Of a DNA stretch of 64,000 nucleotides, positions 5,131-14,659 are shown piece after piece. The stretch's first letter is position 1. Each line of letters starts with the position of its first letter. The translations under genes were made by a program, and so were the position numbers. Source of the DNA: Candidatus Hydrogenedentota bacterium (GTDB lineage Bacteria; Hydrogenedentota; Hydrogenedentia; Hydrogenedentales; JAEUWI01); NCBI GenBank assembly GCA_019637335.1, contig JAHBVV010000013.1:1-64000 (forward strand), read 5' to 3'. The notes beneath the pieces were generated by a model that worked only from the letters and a program-made list of their open reading frames with translations, did not search any database and was not told the origin of the DNA.

Positions 5131-5691
5131 ATGAACCGCATTCCGCACCGAAAGCAGCGCGAGACATTTAACACCCCCGGCGAACCCCACGAACTCACCT
5201 TCACGTGTTTCAAATACCGAAAGTTTCTGCACAGAGATCGGACGCGATGGTACGTTATAGATGCTTTGTCCCGCTTTCCCGGGCAATTCGAGTTTGACCT
5301 CTGGGCCTATGTCATCATGCCGGAGCATGTTCACCTGATCGTCTTTCCTCGTCCGGACGAGTACGACATGTCTGCCTTCCTGAAGTCCTTCAAACAGTCC
5401 GTCGCCCGGCGGGCGATTAATTATCTGCGGCGTAATAATCCCGACGGTTTGAAACATTTGGCCACGGGCATGCCCAACACGCCCTATGCATTCTGGATGG
5501 ACGGCCCTGGTTATGATCGCAATGGAAAGAAGAAGGAAACCCTGGATACCATGGTGAGCTACATCCACAACAACCCGGTACGGCGAGGATTGGTGGAAGA
5601 GCCCGCGCAGTGGGAATGGTCCAGTGCCCGAGAGTGGCAGCAACCCGGTTCCGGTCATCTGCGGTTGGACCTTGATACTTATCCGTATTGA
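5131..5691 (+). CDS. REP-associated tyrosine transposase (TnpA_REP/RAYT, Y1 family)
   Basis: This is a 186-residue HUH single-strand nuclease/transposase related to IS200/IS605 TnpA. The metal-binding HUH motif is visible as PEHVHLI (His66, His68), and the catalytic tyrosine is in MVSYIHNNPVRRG (Tyr144), the signature of REP-associated enzymes. The start at 5131 (MNRIPHRK) is preferred over an upstream ATG at 5080 because conserved sequence begins here. Repeats at 4924-5055 and 5716-5780 bracket it. Known members act on REP hairpins and are usually single-copy and domesticated rather than typical mobile elements. The gene appears intact. Confidence 0.93.
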   Translation: MNRIPHRKQRETFNTPGEPHELTFTCFKYRKFLHRDRTRWYVIDALSRFPGQFEFDLWAYVIMPEHVHLIVFPRPDEYDMSAFLKSFKQSVARRAINYLRRNNPDGLKHLATGMPNTPYAFWMDGPGYDRNGKKKETLDTMVSYIHNNPVRRGLVEEPAQWEWSSAREWQQPGSGHLRLDLDTYPY

Positions 5692-5715
5692 GGGGGCAGG
5701 CCGTAAACGTGGGAA

Positions 5716-5780
5716 CCGCACCCACAAGCTCCGTCGCTACGCTCCTCCGCTTGAGGGTGGCGCCCGTGGTGGGCTTGAGC
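5716..5780. repeat. REP-like repeat copy, downstream of transposase
   Basis: This 65-bp segment matches 4921-4985 with a single mismatch, in direct orientation. It begins 24 bases after the transposase stop. Together the two copies bracket the transposase, making a complete RAYT-REP unit of about 860 bp. Confidence 0.88.
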
Positions 5781-5887
5781 GGGGCATTCGTGGCAAGCCT
5801 GCGGGTGCGGGTTGCTGGATACCCCTTCAAGACAAGCTACTTCTGTTATCATTTTCCAAAATGGCCGCCAAACCCGGAAGTACCCCC

Positions 5888-7699
5888 ATGCGACACACCC
5901 TCCTTGCCCTTCTCCTCACCGCCCTCGCCCAAACCTCAGCCCACCCCATCCCCGACGCCTGGACGCCCATCCTCCTTCCCGGCCATTCCGAGTTCACCTT
6001 CACGATGTACAGTACACCCAGCGACCTGGACGGCCTGAAGGAACTGGTGGCCGTGATGCAGCGCGAGCAATTGGGCAATGGCTTCGACCCCGGCCCGGCG
6101 GCGCATGCGAATTCGGCGGAACTACTCGAATACCTCGCCACCCTTGGCTGGCCCGCAGTGCTGTATCCCGGCTATCCGGGCTTTCAGATTGAAGGCGGGG
6201 TTTGTGCGTTTACGGACGCCGACGAAGCCGTGCTCCAGCGCTTTGCGGCGTCGGGCAACTTCCTCGCGGTGCAGCTGGGCGAGTGGGGCTACTACTTCCA
6301 CAACCTCTCGATGGATGAAGGCTACTGGCGCGCGCAGTTCGGCGACAAACTGGACCAGTACCGCCACGAAATGAAGCCGAAGGGACTGGCGGGTTATGAC
6401 GCGATGCCCGCGAGCAAGAAGGAGGCCCGCGATGTGCTCCGGCGCTATTTCCTCGCGCGGCAGCGGACCATGCGCGGGTGGAATCTGAGCGTTACGGGCC
6501 ACTCCCACTACGAAGCCTATGCGCCGGCGTGGGGTGCGCGGCTGATCGGCCTGGAAGTGGGGGAGAACATCGCCTTCGCGCAGTCGAAGCTTGCCTTCGC
6601 GCGCGGCGCCTCCCGGCAATCGGGCGTGCCCTGGTCCGTGCAGGTAAGCCCGTGGTTCCACGGCGCCTGCACAACGGCGGGGCCGCTCACGGGGGTGGGC
6701 GGCAGCGCGCGCGGGCTGGACGCGGGCCATTCGCTCAGCTTCTACACGCGGATGTGGCTCCACGCCTGGTTTGCGGGCGCGGCCATGGTGACGCCGGAGA
6801 ATAGTCTGGCCATTTTCTTCGAACCCGGCGAGCCCAGGTGGCGGCTGACGTCCCACGGCGAACGCGCAAAGGAGGTGTTTGCCTTCATGCGCAACCACGA
6901 CCGCGGTACGCCGTACACACCGATTGCCGTGGTGCTCGACGAGTACGCGGGCTACAACGGGTTCATGGCGAAGCCCTGGGGCATTCTGGAACCCACGCCG
7001 GGCGACACCGAGATCACCGACCTCTTCGAGGAGCAGTTGTTTCCCGGAACGGACCTCTTCCACGCGCCGCCGGTGGATCCCGAAAACCCCGAGGCGGGCT
7101 ACCTGCGCCCGACGCCCTACGGCGGGAGTTTTGATGTACTGCTGAGCTCGGCCCCGGCGAAAGCCCTCGCGAACTATCCGGTGCTGCTGTTGGCGGGTGA
7201 TATGGACTTCGACCCGCGGTTCGTGGCGTCGCTGTTCGACGTATTGCGCGCGGGAACGCGGCTCCTCATGCTCCCGCGCCACGCCGAGGCGCTCGGCGGG
7301 GATTTCGCGCGGCTGCAGGGGACGGGGACCGTCGAAGTGCTGGAGGAATGGGAAAATCCGGCGACGGGACGTCCCGCGGCGATCTCGAACGCGCGCCTGG
7401 CCGAATTGGTGGAGGAATTGCTTCCCGTAGCGGTGTCGGGCGACCCGGTGCAGTACCAGATCAACCGCAACGCCGCCGGGTGGGTCGTGGAACTGGTAAA
7501 CAACGACGGCGTCATCAAGCAGCGCGACACGCCCGCGGTGGTTGACCCGACCCGGGCGCTCTCGGTGACGCTGACGCCGCGCGCGCGGGTCCGCGAGGCG
7601 CGCGAGTGGACCGCCGATGGCGCGGTCCCGCTCCCCGCGCCGTACACGGTCGAAATACCGTCCGGCGAGACGCGCTTTGTGGAATTCGTCATCGAATAG
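5888..7699 (+). CDS. Secreted protein, possible glycosidase-like fold, function unknown
   Basis: The protein has 603 residues with a clear signal peptide (MRHTLLALLLTALAQTSA). I do not recognise a named family. The middle (about 120-360) has aromatic-rich segments such as GEWGYYFHNL and GHSHYEAYAPAWGA that recall TIM-barrel glycosidases. The segment near 430-500 (YPVLLLAGDMDFDPRF, then LLMLPRH) resembles the glutamine-amidotransferase-like domain found after the barrel in some glycosidases. A short beta domain ends the protein. The start at 5888 gives the cleanest signal peptide; 5861 is an alternative. A role in extracellular polysaccharide use is inference only. Confidence 0.6.
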   Translation: MRHTLLALLLTALAQTSAHPIPDAWTPILLPGHSEFTFTMYSTPSDLDGLKELVAVMQREQLGNGFDPGPAAHANSAELLEYLATLGWPAVLYPGYPGFQIEGGVCAFTDADEAVLQRFAASGNFLAVQLGEWGYYFHNLSMDEGYWRAQFGDKLDQYRHEMKPKGLAGYDAMPASKKEARDVLRRYFLARQRTMRGWNLSVTGHSHYEAYAPAWGARLIGLEVGENIAFAQSKLAFARGASRQSGVPWSVQVSPWFHGACTTAGPLTGVGGSARGLDAGHSLSFYTRMWLHAWFAGAAMVTPENSLAIFFEPGEPRWRLTSHGERAKEVFAFMRNHDRGTPYTPIAVVLDEYAGYNGFMAKPWGILEPTPGDTEITDLFEEQLFPGTDLFHAPPVDPENPEAGYLRPTPYGGSFDVLLSSAPAKALANYPVLLLAGDMDFDPRFVASLFDVLRAGTRLLMLPRHAEALGGDFARLQGTGTVEVLEEWENPATGRPAAISNARLAELVEELLPVAVSGDPVQYQINRNAAGWVVELVNNDGVIKQRDTPAVVDPTRALSVTLTPRARVREAREWTADGAVPLPAPYTVEIPSGETRFVEFVIE

Positions 7700-8103: not shown

Positions 8104-8697
8104 TCAGGAAGCGTGCTTCGCCAGGTAATCGGCCACGCCGTCGGCGGAGGGCGTCATCGCCGCGTCGCCCTTGTTCCAGTTCGCCGGGCAGACTTCGCCG
8201 TGCTCTTCGGTGTACTGGAGCGCGTCGAGCAGGCGGATGGCCTCGTCCACGTTGCGGCCCAGCGGCAGGTTGTTGACCAGCGCGTGCTGCACAACGCCCT
8301 GGCGGTCGATGAGGAAGAGCCCGCGCAGGGCGATGGCGTCGTCCACCAGCACGCCGTATTCACGCGCGATGTTCTTCGTGAGATCGGCCACCAGCGGGTA
8401 CTGGATATTGCCGATGCCGCCCTTGTTCACCGGCGTGTTCTTCCACGCCCAGTGCGAGAAGTGCGAGTCCACCGAAACGCCCACGACCTCGCAATTGCGC
8501 CTCTTGAACTCGTCGAGCTTCTTGTCGAACGCGATGATCTCCGACGGGCACACGAAGGTGAAGTCGAGGGGATAGAAGAACAGCACGACATACTTGCCCT
8601 GGAGGCCGGACAGGCTGAAGGATTCGTTAAAGCTGTTGTCGGGCATCACGGCGGTGGCGGTGAAGTCCGGCGCGGGCCTGGTTACATGTACACTCAT
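8104..8697 (-). CDS. ahpC: AhpC/TSA-type 2-Cys peroxiredoxin
   Basis: This is a 197-residue typical 2-Cys peroxiredoxin that reduces hydrogen peroxide and organic peroxides. The peroxidatic cysteine is Cys50 in DFTFVCPSE and the resolving cysteine Cys170 in EVCPANW. A thioredoxin-fold core surrounds them, and length matches the family. No AhpF is adjacent, so the electron donor is probably thioredoxin or another reductase. An AAGGAG ribosome site lies upstream. The neighbouring ferritin and PerR genes suggest peroxide control, although I see no Per box immediately upstream of this gene itself. Confidence 0.95.
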   Translation of the reverse strand: MSVHVTRPAPDFTATAVMPDNSFNESFSLSGLQGKYVVLFFYPLDFTFVCPSEIIAFDKKLDEFKRRNCEVVGVSVDSHFSHWAWKNTPVNKGGIGNIQYPLVADLTKNIAREYGVLVDDAIALRGLFLIDRQGVVQHALVNNLPLGRNVDEAIRLLDALQYTEEHGEVCPANWNKGDAAMTPSADGVADYLAKHAS

Positions 8698-8825
8698 GGC
8701 ATTCGTACTCCTTTTGGGTCGTTGAAACGGTATCTGGATACAGATCTCTCCCAGATTGGAAGAGGTGTTTACACACTTGCCCCGCGTTCGGACGGATCCC
8801 GCCCGTATGGCAGGTAATTACGGAA

Positions 8826-8857
8826 CCCCGGCCGGCATCCCCGACACGCCGGTGGGG
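8826..8857 (-). terminator. Possible terminator hairpin after ferritin
   Basis: A GC-rich imperfect stem (8826-8836 with 8848-8857) lies eight bases past the ferritin stop. There is no T run, so it may be a Rho-independent terminator of poor quality or only an RNA-stabilising hairpin. Confidence 0.3.
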
Positions 8858-8864
8858 CAGTCTA

Positions 8865-9377
8865 TCACGCGGCGGGCGAATCCGCCGCGGCCTGGCGCTG
8901 CGCCAGCTCGCGGTCGATGAGGAACAGGCCGCTCGGCGCGCCCTCGACCAGTTTCAATTGCTGGACGATGCCGTCGGCGTTCGACTCCTCTTCAACCTGT
9001 TCGGTCACGAACCACTCTAGAAAGGCGTGGCTCGCGTGGTCTTTTTCGTTCACCGCCATCGTCGAAAGTTCGTTGATACACTTGCTGATATGGCACTCGT
9101 GCTTGTAGGCGTCTTCGAAGGCGGCGAGGGGGGTGGGCCACTCCGCGGGCGGCGCGGGTATCGCCTCCAGGATAACGCGGCCGCCCCGGTCGTTCAGGAA
9201 CTTGACCAGGCGCTGCGCGTGCCCCAGTTCTTCGCGGGTTTGCAGCGTCATCCAGTGCGCGAAGCCCTTGAGGCTCAAGTGATCGAAATAGTTGGCCATG
9301 GCGGCGTAGATGTAGGCGCTGGCGAGTTCTTCGTTGATCTGCTTGTTGAACGCATCCTGCATGGCCTGGCTGATCAT
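8865..9377 (-). CDS. ftnA: Ferritin (iron storage)
   Basis: This 170-residue, four-helix, non-haem ferritin oxidises Fe(II) and stores ferric mineral in a 24-mer shell. Ferroxidase ligands are in the expected places: Glu17, Glu50, His53 (TREELGHAQ), Glu94, Gln127 and Glu130. It lies 43 bases downstream of the PerR gene on the same strand, so the two are probably co-transcribed. This fits control of iron storage by peroxide. Nothing is missing or unusual in the sequence. Confidence 0.95.
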   Translation of the reverse strand: MISQAMQDAFNKQINEELASAYIYAAMANYFDHLSLKGFAHWMTLQTREELGHAQRLVKFLNDRGGRVILEAIPAPPAEWPTPLAAFEDAYKHECHISKCINELSTMAVNEKDHASHAFLEWFVTEQVEEESNADGIVQQLKLVEGAPSGLFLIDRELAQRQAAADSPAA

Positions 9378-9420
9378 GGCGTTTCCCTTCTTGCTGAACC
9401 GGTACGTTTGCTCGGCCGAA

Positions 9421-9807
9421 CTATCGGCACGCGGGGCACAGCCCCTCGAATTCTATGCGGTGTTCCAGAATCTGAAATCCATGCGCGCTCTTCCGGGGAC
9501 GCCGTATCCGCGTGCCCGCCGTCATGGGGACATCGTCCACCTTGCCGCACCGCTGGCAGCGCACGTGATAATGGGGCGATGTCTCGCCGTCAAAGCGCGC
9601 CTGCGCCCCACCCGATTCCAGCCGCCGAACCCGGCCCAACCGGGCGAGCACATCCAGATTCCGGTAGATCGTGCCCAGGCTGACATTGGGCAACTCCCGC
9701 CGGACTTCCTCATACAGCTCGTCGGCGGTCGGGTGGCTGTGGAGCCGGCAGAGCGTCTCCAGTATCACCGTTCGCTGCCGGGTCATCCGCTGTAGGGGTG
9801 AATTCAT
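9421..9807 (-). CDS. perR: PerR-type peroxide sensor, Fur family
   Basis: This is a 128-residue winged-helix metalloregulator. By alignment to Bacillus PerR, the regulatory-site ligands are present: His25, Asp73, His79, His81 and Asp92. The structural zinc cysteines are Cys84, Cys87, Cys124 and Cys127. The Asp at the last regulatory position, rather than the Glu of classical Fur, argues for PerR. In known PerR, Fe-catalysed oxidation of His25/His79 equivalents releases DNA. The gene is followed by ferritin and then AhpC, both standard PerR targets, and has a Per-box-like palindrome just upstream. Confidence 0.88.
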   Translation of the reverse strand: MNSPLQRMTRQRTVILETLCRLHSHPTADELYEEVRRELPNVSLGTIYRNLDVLARLGRVRRLESGGAQARFDGETSPHYHVRCQRCGKVDDVPMTAGTRIRRPRKSAHGFQILEHRIEFEGLCPACR

Positions 9808-9924: not shown

Positions 9925-11571
9925 CTACAGGCGCGCCAGGGCCACCCCGGAAAAATAATGCCGCAGAATGGCCTCATAGCCCAGGTTTTCCCGCGCCATG
10001 CCATTCGCTCCGTGCTGGCACAGGCCCACGCCGTGGCCCCGGCCCGCGCCGCGAATATGCACTGTTCCACCTTGAATTGAAAAAGTGCACAGCGCGCTCG
10101 GCAGGTTTTCGAAAGCCCGCCGGATGTTCAACTCCTTGTTGATTACCGCGCTCTTTCGATCACCCACCACCCGAACCGACTTCAGGCGCCCGCTAACCCC
10201 GCGCTCCAGCGCCTCAATCGACCGAAGGTTGCCGATGCCGTAGTCGCGGTTGAATTGCGCCGAGAGCTTGGCGAGGGATATCGACCGGGTCCAGCGGTAG
10301 TAGTCCTTGTCGCCCGCACAGTAGGCATGGCCACCCGAATTCAGCCACCGCTCGGCGTGGTTATGGGACCCCCGCCGTTCGCCATCGCGCGAGTCCGGCC
10401 GCCCGCGCAGCGCGGGCTGGGCCGCGCCATCCCACACGTTCTCGTTGCTTTCCGTCCAGCCGCCGCAATTCGATGAAAAAACGGTCGGTACAATGCTCTT
10501 GTCCGCCGCGACGAGAATGATGCCCTCGGTTTCCTTCACGGCCTGATCCGTGCGGGGATCGTAGAGCCCGCGCCCGCCAAACGCGCGGCAGTGCTGCTCG
10601 ATGCAGAAGTCGTACCCGTCGAAAAAGTGTTTTCCGCGCGCGTGCACCAGGACTTCGCTCCGCGCGGCGACCGCCTGGGCCTTGAGCGCCTCCAGCGGCC
10701 AGGAGGCGTACATCTCGGCGGGGAGGATGCCGCGGAGGTACTCCTCCAGCGCGACCTCGCCCAGAAACGCGGTGTGCCCGGTATGATCGGCCAGAATTTC
10801 CATGGGAGCGGGAACCGTGACCGGCGGATGGCCCTTGCGCGCGTCCGGCAGGGTCAGCAGGCCCTCGGAGCGAACCGTCACCGGCGAGGCCGCGTGCAGC
10901 ACCTCGCCGCCGGTTGCGCTCCGGAAGGTGATGTTCGCCCGGGCGCGGTTGTCGACTTCTTCGCGGCTCCAGGCCCAGACCTTCTGGCCCTGCAACTGCT
11001 TCTTCAGGGCCTCCGCCTCGGCTTCCGAGGCGCAGCGCCGCACCGCGAGCCAGTAGAGGCGGTTGTCGTGCAGCGCGCCTCCGCTTCCGGCGACCGCATG
11101 TCCCATGGTGGTCACGCTGGGCGCGAAACCCTGCTTGCGCCAGTGCTCCAGGGCATCGCGCAGCGCCGCCGTTTCGTGGTGTTCGAAGGCCTTCACAAAG
11201 ACGGGCCACGATTTCTTCGCCGGGCCCAGTGTCCGCGCGGAGACCTTCCAGGTTCCCGCCGGGAGGCGTCTGAGGCCGATATCGTGGGCGGACACCACCA
11301 GTTCCTGCTCCGCGATGAGTACTTCTTCCTGGGTGGACTGAAGGTATTGCAAGCGGACGCGGAAGCTCTCGCGCGCCGGCGGGCGCAAACCGGCCTCCAC
11401 GGTGTCCTCCCGGGTGGGCGGCGGAGTGGCCCCGGTATCGCGGCGCGGCGGTGGGCTGCTGGAGTGGCCGCAGCCGGAAAGAATAAGGATCGCCGCCACG
11501 GGGGCCACAGCAAACGCCAGGCGCGCAATACGGCCATACGACTGCATTATTTGAATGGCGTATTTCCTCAC
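9925..11571 (-). CDS. SpoIID/LytB-domain lipoprotein (peptidoglycan lytic transglycosylase-like)
   Basis: The protein has 548 residues with a lipoprotein signal ending in LILSGC, so it should be anchored to a membrane facing the periplasm. A SPOR-like segment (about 160-210, LYWLAVRRCASEAEAEAL) may bind denuded glycan. The C-terminal half is a SpoIID domain: LPAEMYASWPLEALKAQAVA carries the glutamate that is catalytic in SpoIID, and GRGHGVGLCQHGANGMA is the family's closing motif. Known SpoIID proteins cleave glycan strands and leave anhydroMurNAc ends. The GTG start overlaps the stop of the kinase-MurQ gene (GTGA), implying coupled translation; an ATG at 11547 is possible. Confidence 0.88.
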   Translation of the reverse strand: MRKYAIQIMQSYGRIARLAFAVAPVAAILILSGCGHSSSPPPRRDTGATPPPTREDTVEAGLRPPARESFRVRLQYLQSTQEEVLIAEQELVVSAHDIGLRRLPAGTWKVSARTLGPAKKSWPVFVKAFEHHETAALRDALEHWRKQGFAPSVTTMGHAVAGSGGALHDNRLYWLAVRRCASEAEAEALKKQLQGQKVWAWSREEVDNRARANITFRSATGGEVLHAASPVTVRSEGLLTLPDARKGHPPVTVPAPMEILADHTGHTAFLGEVALEEYLRGILPAEMYASWPLEALKAQAVAARSEVLVHARGKHFFDGYDFCIEQHCRAFGGRGLYDPRTDQAVKETEGIILVAADKSIVPTVFSSNCGGWTESNENVWDGAAQPALRGRPDSRDGERRGSHNHAERWLNSGGHAYCAGDKDYYRWTRSISLAKLSAQFNRDYGIGNLRSIEALERGVSGRLKSVRVVGDRKSAVINKELNIRRAFENLPSALCTFSIQGGTVHIRGAGRGHGVGLCQHGANGMARENLGYEAILRHYFSGVALARL

Positions 11572-13382
11572 GGGGCGTCCCGCAGTGCCTGGCGCAGCTG
11601 ACCGCCGGCTTCCGCGAACTGGCGATCAGCCTCGGCGATGGAAACGCCGCGCATCAGGGCGATCAGTGCGACCGGAATGCGGTAGTCCGCGTGTTCGAGG
11701 GCGTCCCGAGCGGCTTCCGGGCTGGTACGCGCGAGCGCGGCCACCATACCCTCGGCGCGGCGGCGCAGCTTGGCGTTCGACGCGCGCATGGACACCATTC
11801 GCCCTTCATAGACGAAGCCTGCCAGGGCCATGGCGCCGGTCGAAATGATGTTGAGGGCGACCTTCGTCGCCGTGCCGGCGTTGAGGCGGGTGGAGCCCGG
11901 CAGGAGTTCAGGGCCGGTGGGCAATGTGATGCAGTAATCCGCCGTGTTCTCCGGGATCTGTGGGTTGCAGCAGAGGAGGGCGGTGGGAATGCCCGCGCGC
12001 CGGGCCGCTTCGAGCGCCGCGCGCACATAGGGGGTCGTGCCCGAGGCCGCAATGCCCACGACGAAGTCGTCCGGCCCCGGCGCGTGGGCGAACAGATCCT
12101 TCACGCCGAGCTCCGTGTCGTCCTCCGCGCCCTCGGCCCCGTCGCGCAGGGCCCCATCGCCGCCCGCCATAATACCCACCACGCGATCCGCCGGTACGCC
12201 AAAGGTCGGGGGGCATTCCGAGGCGTCCAGCACGCCGAGCCGCCCGCTGGTGCCCGCGCCAAGGTAAAACAGCCGCCCGCCGCGCCGCAGGGTGTCGCCC
12301 GCGCGCCGCACGGCCGCCGCCAGGTTGTGGGCCTGTTGCCGCAACGCGCGCCCGACCATGGCTTCGTGCCCGATCATCGCGTCCACGAAGGCCTCCGGCG
12401 TCATGCTGTCGATCGGATCCTGGCCACGGCACACCCCTTCCGTCGGGGACTGCGCCGAGACATCCGGGGAGAACAGGTGACACCAGTCCTCATTGCCGGA
12501 CAGATTTCGCAGCTCGACGGCGGCACGGTGGCTTCGGTGGCGCAGGGGCGTGGGCACGAGGCGGCGTTCCATACCCACGGCGTTGAAGTAGGTTTCGCGG
12601 AAGAGGCCGCAATGTTCGATGACGCCGCCCTGCGTAATCAGGGGCACGGGATCGGCGCCGGGCAGTTGGAAGAGGGCGGCGAGCGTCAACGAGGCCAGCT
12701 GCCGGGCCTGCGCCGTGATACAGCCGCGCGCAACGGCGTCGCCTTCGTCCGCCGCCTCGCAGACGGTCCGCGCCAGGGCGGCCAGCTCTTGCCGGGTCGC
12801 CGCCAGGGACCAGGGGATCAACTCCTCGGTATCGTCGAGCTTGAGCATTTCGGGGATGCGCTGCTCCAGCGATGTTCGGGCGCCCGCGCGGTCTTCGGCG
12901 CGCGCAATGGCCCGCAGCGCGCTCACGGCGATGTGGTACGCGCTGCCTTCGTCGCCCATGACCGGGCCGCGCCCGCCCACGCGGTGGAAGTGCTGCTGTC
13001 CGTCGTGGATGAGAATGGATGCGCCCGTGCCCGCGATGACGAGCATGCCCGGGCTGTCCGGGAAGTGCGCGTACGCCAGGGGATGCAGGTCGGTGGTGAT
13101 GCAAAGCGCGCCCAGGCGCGGAACCGCCGCAAGCTGGGCGGCGATATCCTGCCCGATGCGCCGCGACATGACCCCGGCTATACCGGCGAGCACGGTGACG
13201 CCGGTCTGATCCGACGGGATGAGTTCGCGTGCGAGTGAGGCGATAACGCCGGCCGTGGTGGCCACGCCGTAGGCGAGCGGGTTCGAAGGGCCGGCCTCGG
13301 TCTCCGCCACGAGGCGATCGCCGTCGTAGAGCCCGGCCGTGGTCCGCGTGCCGCCGCCCTCGATTGCCAGATACCACCCCAT
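11568..13382 (-). CDS. murQ: Fused BadF-type amino-sugar kinase and MurQ etherase
   Basis: This 604-residue protein joins two recycling enzymes. Residues 1-290 are an ASKHA kinase of the BadF/N-acetylglucosamine-kinase type (EGGGTRT at 8-14, AGTGAS at 117-122, GDEGSAY at 143-149). Residues about 320-600 are N-acetylmuramic acid 6-phosphate etherase with GAGTSGRLGVLDASECPPT; Glu389 and Glu420 match the catalytic glutamates of E. coli MurQ. Together they could phosphorylate MurNAc and then remove lactate to give GlcNAc-6-phosphate. The ATG at 13382 shares its A with the upstream stop codon (ATGA). I infer MurNAc rather than GlcNAc as kinase substrate from the fusion. Confidence 0.92.
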   Translation of the reverse strand: MGWYLAIEGGGTRTTAGLYDGDRLVAETEAGPSNPLAYGVATTAGVIASLARELIPSDQTGVTVLAGIAGVMSRRIGQDIAAQLAAVPRLGALCITTDLHPLAYAHFPDSPGMLVIAGTGASILIHDGQQHFHRVGGRGPVMGDEGSAYHIAVSALRAIARAEDRAGARTSLEQRIPEMLKLDDTEELIPWSLAATRQELAALARTVCEAADEGDAVARGCITAQARQLASLTLAALFQLPGADPVPLITQGGVIEHCGLFRETYFNAVGMERRLVPTPLRHRSHRAAVELRNLSGNEDWCHLFSPDVSAQSPTEGVCRGQDPIDSMTPEAFVDAMIGHEAMVGRALRQQAHNLAAAVRRAGDTLRRGGRLFYLGAGTSGRLGVLDASECPPTFGVPADRVVGIMAGGDGALRDGAEGAEDDTELGVKDLFAHAPGPDDFVVGIAASGTTPYVRAALEAARRAGIPTALLCCNPQIPENTADYCITLPTGPELLPGSTRLNAGTATKVALNIISTGAMALAGFVYEGRMVSMRASNAKLRRRAEGMVAALARTSPEAARDALEHADYRIPVALIALMRGVSIAEADRQFAEAGGQLRQALRDAP

Positions 13383-14659
13383 CAGGAGGCCTCCCTGCCC
13401 GGCGCGTTCCAGCCGGGGCAGTAGCGCGCGATTGCGCCGGGGCGCAACGTCCCGTGCTTCGCAATATCGTTCAAGAGAAATGCGCTCGGGTTCGGCGTTC
13501 GGGCGAGCGTCTCGCGATCCACGTGCACCAGCCCGTAGCGGCGCCGGTAGCCGTGACAGCCCTCGAAGCCGTCCAGCAGCGAACGGTGGCAGTATCCGAG
13601 AATCCTGTGGCCCCTTGCGCGCGCCTCCAGCACGGCGGTGGCATGGTCCGCAATGAAGGCGCAGCGCTCCGCATCGTCCTCGGTGGCGATGCCGCAAGTT
13701 ACCAGGATGGGGACGTTCCAGTGTCCGGCGCGATCCAGTGCGCCCGGGAGAGCGTCCGGCGCGGGGAGGCCTTCATCCGGAAATGCCGCGCGTCCATCCG
13801 GGCCCGCGTACCGGGCAAAGCGCGATGCCGGGCGCGTGGGGGAGGCGAAAACCGAGCGCCGCCCGGGAAGGGAGAGGGCGACAAAGTCGAAGGGGGGCGC
13901 GCTGCCAAGGTCCGCCGCCAGCGCATCCGCGTATTCCCGCTCCCGGGCCCATTGCTGCCAGCGCGTGGCCCGGAGATCCCAGGGGCTGTGCGGATCGAGG
14001 GGTTCCAGGGCAGGCGCGGCGATCGAAATGCCCAACTGGTGCGCGCCGCCTTGCTCGCGGAGGAAGTTGCGCGCGCGCAGATGGACCGCGCGAAGTTGCG
14101 CCGCCGCCTTCCGGGTGAATCGGCGGGCGCCCGCGGGCCGGGGCCAGCGGCAATCGCCATAGGCCATCCGCCGCCACAACGCGGGATCGTGTATCGGACC
14201 CCAGTGGCGGCAGTGGGGTGAGAGGGCTTCGAAAACCCGCTCCAGATAGCCCTGGAACCAATCCCCCGCCGCCGGATTCGCCCAAGCGCCGGCATCGGCG
14301 AACCACGCGGGCAGGCTTTGCTCCTGGAGCACTGCGACGGGTGTGACGCCCTGGCGGCCCATCGTTTGGAATACGTCCCGGTAATGGGCCAGCACGCTTT
14401 CATCGATGCGGTCGGGCGCGGGGGCGACGCGCGCCCAGGAAAGGCTGTATTGAAGGACGCTCAGCCCGAGCTTGTGCGCCAGCGCGATGTCGTCGCGCGC
14501 GCGGTTGAGGTGATCCGCCGCAACCTCGGAGGTCGCGCCGCCCGCGATCCGGCCCGGGCGCTGTTCGAAACGCCACCAGTCCGAGTCGAAATCCCGGCCC
14601 TCCACGGCATGGGCATTCAGGGTGGCCCCCCAGAGCAGGCTGTCGTCGGCATTCGGCAC
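13382..14659 (-). CDS. GH1-family beta-glucosidase homologue lacking catalytic glutamates
   Basis: The 425-residue protein follows the glycoside hydrolase family 1 fold through its length: LGLSVLQYSLSWARVAPAP near residue 65, a barrel core, and GYCHRSLLDGFEG near 355 followed by YGLVHVDRETLARTPN. The two catalytic motifs are altered. The acid/base NEP is His157-Asp158-Pro159, and the nucleophile ITENG is reduced to VTCG at 320-323, so no glutamate is available. It heads an overlapping set with the kinase-MurQ and SpoIID genes. It may be a sugar-binding pseudoenzyme or use another mechanism. No frameshift is evident. Confidence 0.85.
   Translation of the reverse strand: MPNADDSLLWGATLNAHAVEGRDFDSDWWRFEQRPGRIAGGATSEVAADHLNRARDDIALAHKLGLSVLQYSLSWARVAPAPDRIDESVLAHYRDVFQTMGRQGVTPVAVLQEQSLPAWFADAGAWANPAAGDWFQGYLERVFEALSPHCRHWGPIHDPALWRRMAYGDCRWPRPAGARRFTRKAAAQLRAVHLRARNFLREQGGAHQLGISIAAPALEPLDPHSPWDLRATRWQQWAREREYADALAADLGSAPPFDFVALSLPGRRSVFASPTRPASRFARYAGPDGRAAFPDEGLPAPDALPGALDRAGHWNVPILVTCGIATEDDAERCAFIADHATAVLEARARGHRILGYCHRSLLDGFEGCHGYRRRYGLVHVDRETLARTPNPSAFLLNDIAKHGTLRPGAIARYCPGWNAPGREAS

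Follow-up and report, generated by a model that had tools for sequence, protein, structure and literature searches.

The window that was analysed in this work, a stretch of 64,000 nucleotides from a Candidatus Hydrogenedentota bacterium, contains a locus that probably represents the form taken in this phylum by a peptidoglycan amino-sugar recycling operon, with a glycoside hydrolase family 1 (GH1) protein that would tune or scaffold the pathway. The fusion protein encoded by this operon, consisting of a sugar kinase and the etherase MurQ, and the operon itself are a variation on known peptidoglycan recycling. The GH1 protein, which lacks the catalytic nucleophile throughout the phylum and is referred to below as pseudo-GH1, is the real surprise of the locus and the part of it that a specialist would not expect.

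Organization of the Locus

The domains encoded by the locus were assigned using Pfam and NCBIfam models, and all four of them were confirmed.

13382..14659, minus strand: pseudo-GH1, a GH1-family protein without the catalytic nucleophile (pseudo-glycosidase); PF00232, 3e-47; no apparent signal peptide
12480..13382, minus strand: N-terminal BadF/NagK/MurK-type sugar kinase domain of the fusion; PF01869, 2e-17; Asp98 and GGRG..GDEGS
11568..12445, minus strand: C-terminal MurQ (MurNAc-6-phosphate etherase) domain of the fusion; PRK05441, 1e-99; Glu389 and Glu420
9925..11571, minus strand: SpoIID/LytB-domain protein with an LSGC lipobox, a putative lytic transglycosylase; PF08486, 2e-21; TIGR02669, 5e-54

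The three genes (13382–14659, 11568–13382, and 9925–11571) are consecutive on the minus strand and overlap end to start, as an earlier reading of the sequence alone (the sequence-only reading) had claimed. The stop codon of the pseudo-GH1 gene shares 1 nt with the start of the fusion (TGATG), and the stop codon of the fusion overlaps by 4 nt with the GTG start of SpoIID (GTGA), a start which is not certain. The description of these genes in that reading as a cell-wall recycling set was largely right as regards peptidoglycan sugars, but the anhydroMurNAc kinase AnmK was missed and the GH1-like protein misjudged. Directly downstream of SpoIID (8104–9807, minus strand) lies an iron/oxidative-stress set comprised of a Fur-family regulator, a ferritin and an AhpC/TSA peroxiredoxin; Fur is also found downstream in two other genomes (G035 and G037). 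Additionally, the plus strand carries an ORF of 691 aa (5624–7699) with no Pfam match.

The Kinase-MurQ Fusion

The proposal of a kinase-MurQ fusion is borne out by the presence in one ORF of matches to the BcrAD_BadFG model PF01869 (64.3 bits versus a cut-off of 31.5) and the MurQ model PRK05441 (332.9 bits versus a cut-off of 168), with the catalytic residues in place; a second MurQ model, TIGR00274, scored just under its cut-off (283 versus 302 bits). The residues D98, E389, and E420 are invariant among the aligned fusions. In the N-terminal half, the catalytic Asp (D98) and the glycine-rich GGRG..GDEGS motif, which corresponds to the phosphate-binding loops, are conserved as expected of a BadF/NagK/MurK sugar kinase. 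The C-terminal half retains both catalytic glutamates, and its predicted function is that of an etherase. These glutamates are spaced 31 residues apart, as are E83 and E114 in E. coli MurQ.

In sequence searches against known structures, the C-terminal half matched MurQ (4s12, 4lzj), and the kinase half matched the S. tokodaii hexokinase, the MurNAc/GlcNAc kinase 8zo3 (C. acetobutylicum MurK) and human NagK. An AlphaFold model of the fusion, based upon 12 sequences (pLDDT 83), contains two complete domains, and the linker between them, at approximately residues 297–319, is of low confidence. When this model was compared using Foldseek, its halves matched MurQ (4s12, 4lzj) and the MurK proteins of C. 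acetobutylicum and T. forsythia. The start of the fusion is placed at the ATG at 13382. A longer ORF reaching to a TTG at 13697 was rejected as an over-extension, since this ATG stands immediately ahead of the first motif of the kinase. No prior description of MurK-MurQ fusions was found in the open-access papers searched.

Distribution of the Fusion and the Cassette

The presence or absence of these genes was determined by sequence searches of 68 genomes of Candidatus Hydrogenedentota, including that of the window. The fusion or its parts were matched in 58 of these (E 1e-10 or better, the weakest matches being to distant BadF kinases only), and a recognisable fused kinase-MurQ ORF was present at 42 loci. 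Among the loci where the neighbourhood was testable, the GH1-like gene was located directly upstream of the fusion in 23 of 39 and SpoIID directly downstream of it in 23 of 37; the latter count answers in the affirmative the check, suggested earlier, of whether SpoIID and the fusion co-occur in relatives. AnmK was found no more than 3 kb downstream of the fusion in 25 of the 37 loci, and either SpoIID or AnmK followed it in 30 of them. The full order of pseudo-GH1, MurK/MurQ, SpoIID, and AnmK was observed in nine genomes. Where SpoIID is located apart from the fusion, it still precedes AnmK (G009, G013, G014, G022, G027, G042, G048, G056, and G061), and in G044 and G059 pseudo-GH1 stands immediately before the SpoIID-AnmK pair. 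The recurrence of the same gene order across the phylum indicates that the arrangement is not due to chance. The sequence-only reading knew of no standard cassette that links a glycan-cutting lipoprotein to such a fusion, but within Candidatus Hydrogenedentota the order is standard and the fusion widespread.

In a quick phylogenetic tree, the MurQ domains from Hydrogenedentota formed one group with an SH-aLRT support of 98, with the exception of the sequence from G059, and this grouping is consistent with a fusion that was ancestral to the phylum. The same fusion, in one ORF with the same domain order and 34–38% identity, is present at nine loci in Verrucomicrobiota (L088–L096), at none of which pseudo-GH1, SpoIID or AnmK was found in flanks of up to 9 kb. 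Examples of the kinase and MurQ as separate adjoining genes were found in Bacillota, Planctomycetota, and Pseudomonadota. A search of genome contigs with the single sequence of the fusion gave no match, whereas an alignment-based search was successful. At four other loci (L101, L102, L103, and L152; Gemmatimonadota and one other bacterium), AnmK begins immediately after MurQ or overlaps its end.

SpoIID, AnmK, and the Proposed Pathway

The SpoIID protein has the domain and the conserved catalytic Glu of a SpoIID/LytB lytic transglycosylase, for which cleavage of glycan strands is predicted. By alignment to solved SpoIID chains this Glu lies in a PAEM motif at about residue 286, and a motif scan identified PAEM or PSEM in 21 of 24 relatives. 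The claim that SpoIID is a lipoprotein agrees with the LSGC sequence present here, but in a quick motif scan a lipobox-like motif was seen in few of the relatives. In Waddlia, SpoIID acts as a lytic transglycosylase on sacculi and as a muramidase on denuded glycans (PMC6635528).

AnmK is present in 67 of the 68 genomes and is the fourth member of the cassette in relatives; the window shows three of the four, and the copy of AnmK in the window genome is located on another contig (C7:145587). In E. coli, anhydro ends are converted via AnmK to MurNAc-6-phosphate, from which MurQ forms GlcNAc-6-phosphate (described in PMC5371407). The Hydrogenedentota cassette resembles this catabolic route and differs from it in that SpoIID is the linked glycan cutter, MurQ is fused to a kinase, and pseudo-GH1 is added. 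The idea that SpoIID, which in the sequence-only reading would release anhydroMurNAc or MurNAc fragments, feeds the fused kinase directly was set aside, save for possible muramidase products, in favour of AnmK, which is a regular neighbour in relatives and should take the anhydro products.

Another potential source of muramic acid is NamZ (exo-muramidase family), which is found in 61 of the 68 genomes including that of the window. In two relatives, NamZ lies behind a PF00144 serine beta-lactamase-family domain in one ORF (L249:4855–7059 and L236:2529–4889), and the lengths of the ORFs suggest that this fusion is common in the phylum. In G049 it lies close to the cassette, and in G027 it lies close to pseudo-GH1. 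The window genome also contains NagB and two NagA-family proteins, the scores of which are under the curated cut-off. In both GH3 proteins of this genome the KHFPGHG motif is missing, and no cytosolic NagZ was recognised. This absence, the low NagA scores and the lack of an importer inside the cassette count against the pathway proposed below.

The content and order of the genes, their conservation, the catalytic residues and the loss of the GH1 nucleophile are seen in the sequences themselves. We infer every enzymatic step of the following pathway, as well as uptake and the role of pseudo-GH1, from the families to which these proteins belong. Outside the cytoplasm, SpoIID would cut glycan strands into fragments ending in anhydroMurNAc and perhaps in MurNAc. 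AnmK would then convert anhydroMurNAc to MurNAc-6-phosphate, and the fused kinase would phosphorylate free MurNAc (e.g., that from NamZ) and/or GlcNAc. The fused MurQ would remove D-lactate from the MurNAc-6-phosphate of both routes, yielding GlcNAc-6-phosphate for NagA/NagB. Pseudo-GH1, an apparently cytoplasmic pseudo-glycosidase, most likely binds an amino sugar, a muropeptide or a partner enzyme and would tune or scaffold the pathway. No prior description of SpoIID together with AnmK or an etherase, or of recycling in Hydrogenedentes, was found in the open-access papers searched.

A close resemblance in the pairing of kinase and etherase is that to the murTKQ operon of T. forsythia (PMC5790795, PMC10465942), where a sugar kinase acting on MurNAc is followed by MurQ, their joint product being GlcNAc-6-phosphate. 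In T. forsythia, however, MurK and MurQ are separate neighbouring proteins accompanied by the transporter MurT, whereas here they are one polypeptide, no importer is present inside the cassette, and pseudo-GH1, SpoIID, and AnmK join it.

Substrate of the Fused Kinase

In T. forsythia MurK, a Thr precedes the catalytic Asp, and the small residues S133-P134-L135 admit the lactyl group (PMC10465942). The window kinase likewise has a Thr ahead of its catalytic Asp, and its lactyl-pocket positions are GGR rather than SPL; neither the Glu nor the His that is said to block MurNAc is present. This combination is compatible with the use of MurNAc but is not diagnostic of it as opposed to GlcNAc. It is possible, although somewhat doubtful, that the fused kinase acts on GlcNAc and that muramic acid is handled by MurQ alone, so that the fusion would join the streams of GlcNAc and AnmK-derived MurNAc-6-phosphate, both ending in GlcNAc-6-phosphate, rather than perform two successive steps on MurNAc. 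In favour of this, AnmK as a regular partner in the cassette would already supply MurNAc-6-phosphate, both GlcNAc kinases and the dual-specificity MurK of C. acetobutylicum are similar to the fused kinase, and in some genomes the kinase occurs without MurQ. The Thr shared with T. forsythia MurK argues against a kinase for GlcNAc, as do the frequency of the MurNAc-releasing NamZ in the phylum and its proximity to the cassette or to pseudo-GH1 in the two genomes noted above.

Pseudo-GH1 is found beside an unfused kinase in G048, G064, G065, and G066 (L078–L081), genomes in which no match for MurQ was detected. In these genomes, either MurNAc-6-phosphate must have some other fate or GlcNAc is the substrate of the kinase. 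They also indicate that the parts of the cassette can separate, which counts against the interpretation of the locus as a recycling operon.

A GH1 Protein without a Nucleophile

Pseudo-GH1 clearly belongs to the GH1 sequence family (Glyco_hydro_1, 161.5 bits versus a cut-off of 22.6). It had been read as a plain member of this family, but the nucleophile Glu of the (I/V)TENG motif is present in 0 of 36 relatives, where this position is mostly Gly, and the protein is therefore not a classical GH1 glycosidase. In the window protein, the position is a Cys, accompanied by a one-residue deletion. Of the canonical GH1 proteins of this phylum, five could be aligned and all of these carry the ITENG nucleophile, a sixth being truncated. 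Pseudo-GH1 shares its sequence family with the GH1 beta-glucosidases and with Klotho, a GH1-family receptor that is among its matches in the PDB and is catalytically impaired. It differs from these in being bacterial, apparently cytoplasmic, and tied to amino-sugar recycling genes, and in the family-wide loss of the nucleophile. No prior description of GH1 pseudoenzymes was found in the open-access papers searched.

The loss of both catalytic residues or their variability, the further losses in the window copy (W367G and the deletion at the nucleophile), and the 19 genomes that carry a kinase/MurQ locus without pseudo-GH1 could be taken to mean that this protein was once a glycosidase, is now a relic in decay, and persists by its position in the operon only. 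However, its reading frames are intact across the phylum, and its dN/dS values of 0.08–0.25 (nine pairs, counting method) are similar to those of the neighbouring genes and indicate purifying selection; these values are rough, as several pairs are near synonymous saturation, but the least diverged pairs are in agreement (0.10 and 0.18). Pseudo-GH1 also has near-invariant residues of its own which are absent from canonical GH1 (D27, W29, E32-Q33-R34, W119, P155, W172-P173, and W227; this count excludes five members of high divergence). This evidence of selection weakens the interpretation as a relic, which we consider very improbable.

Kinase/MurQ or SpoIID is present in all 36 genomes with pseudo-GH1 versus 22 of the 32 without it (Fisher 2e-4, phylogeny not being corrected for). 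In G059 and G061, copies of pseudo-GH1 (L180 and L185) are oriented divergently to a galactokinase-like GHMP kinase. We conclude that pseudo-GH1 is a retained pseudo-glycosidase that would have a role in the recycling pathway.

For this role, regulation, scaffolding or ligand sensing is likelier, while non-canonical catalysis is the bolder suggestion. It is unlikely, though conceivable, that pseudo-GH1 is an active amino-sugar hydrolase in which the 2-acetamido group of the substrate replaces the nucleophile and which takes the place of NagZ in the cytosol by cleaving GlcNAc-MurNAc or GlcNAc-anhydroMurNAc. Complete loss is confined to the nucleophile, the acid/base Glu (NEP) being retained in 21 of 34 readable relatives; this would suit such a mechanism, as would the near-invariant residues, the linkage to amino-sugar genes and the want of a NagZ motif in the window genome. 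Against it, the acid/base position is T, R, H, Q, N, A or D in the other 13 of 34 (Asp in the window protein) with unchanged synteny, and GH3 proteins with the NagZ motif occur in other members that also have pseudo-GH1. Taking the two kinds of role together, we tentatively propose, at somewhat less than even likelihood, that pseudo-GH1 may be a peptidoglycan-recycling component of a new kind with the fold of GH1. It would then either sense muropeptides or amino sugars and regulate the MurK-MurQ fusion, or be a hydrolase that lacks the nucleophile and relies on substrate-assisted catalysis.

Significance

Knowledge of peptidoglycan recycling comes mostly from a small number of model groups, and the present work describes a compact cassette for it from an uncultured phylum. 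In this cassette, kinase and etherase are one protein, and two routes to MurNAc-6-phosphate, via AnmK and possibly MurK, would meet at one MurQ. It would be a mistake to annotate the pseudo-GH1 family as beta-glucosidases. The loss of the nucleophile and the company of this protein in relatives suggest that it took on a new, non-standard job, and a nucleophile-less GH1 under purifying selection provides a testable case of a glycosidase fold that may have been re-used in amino-sugar metabolism.
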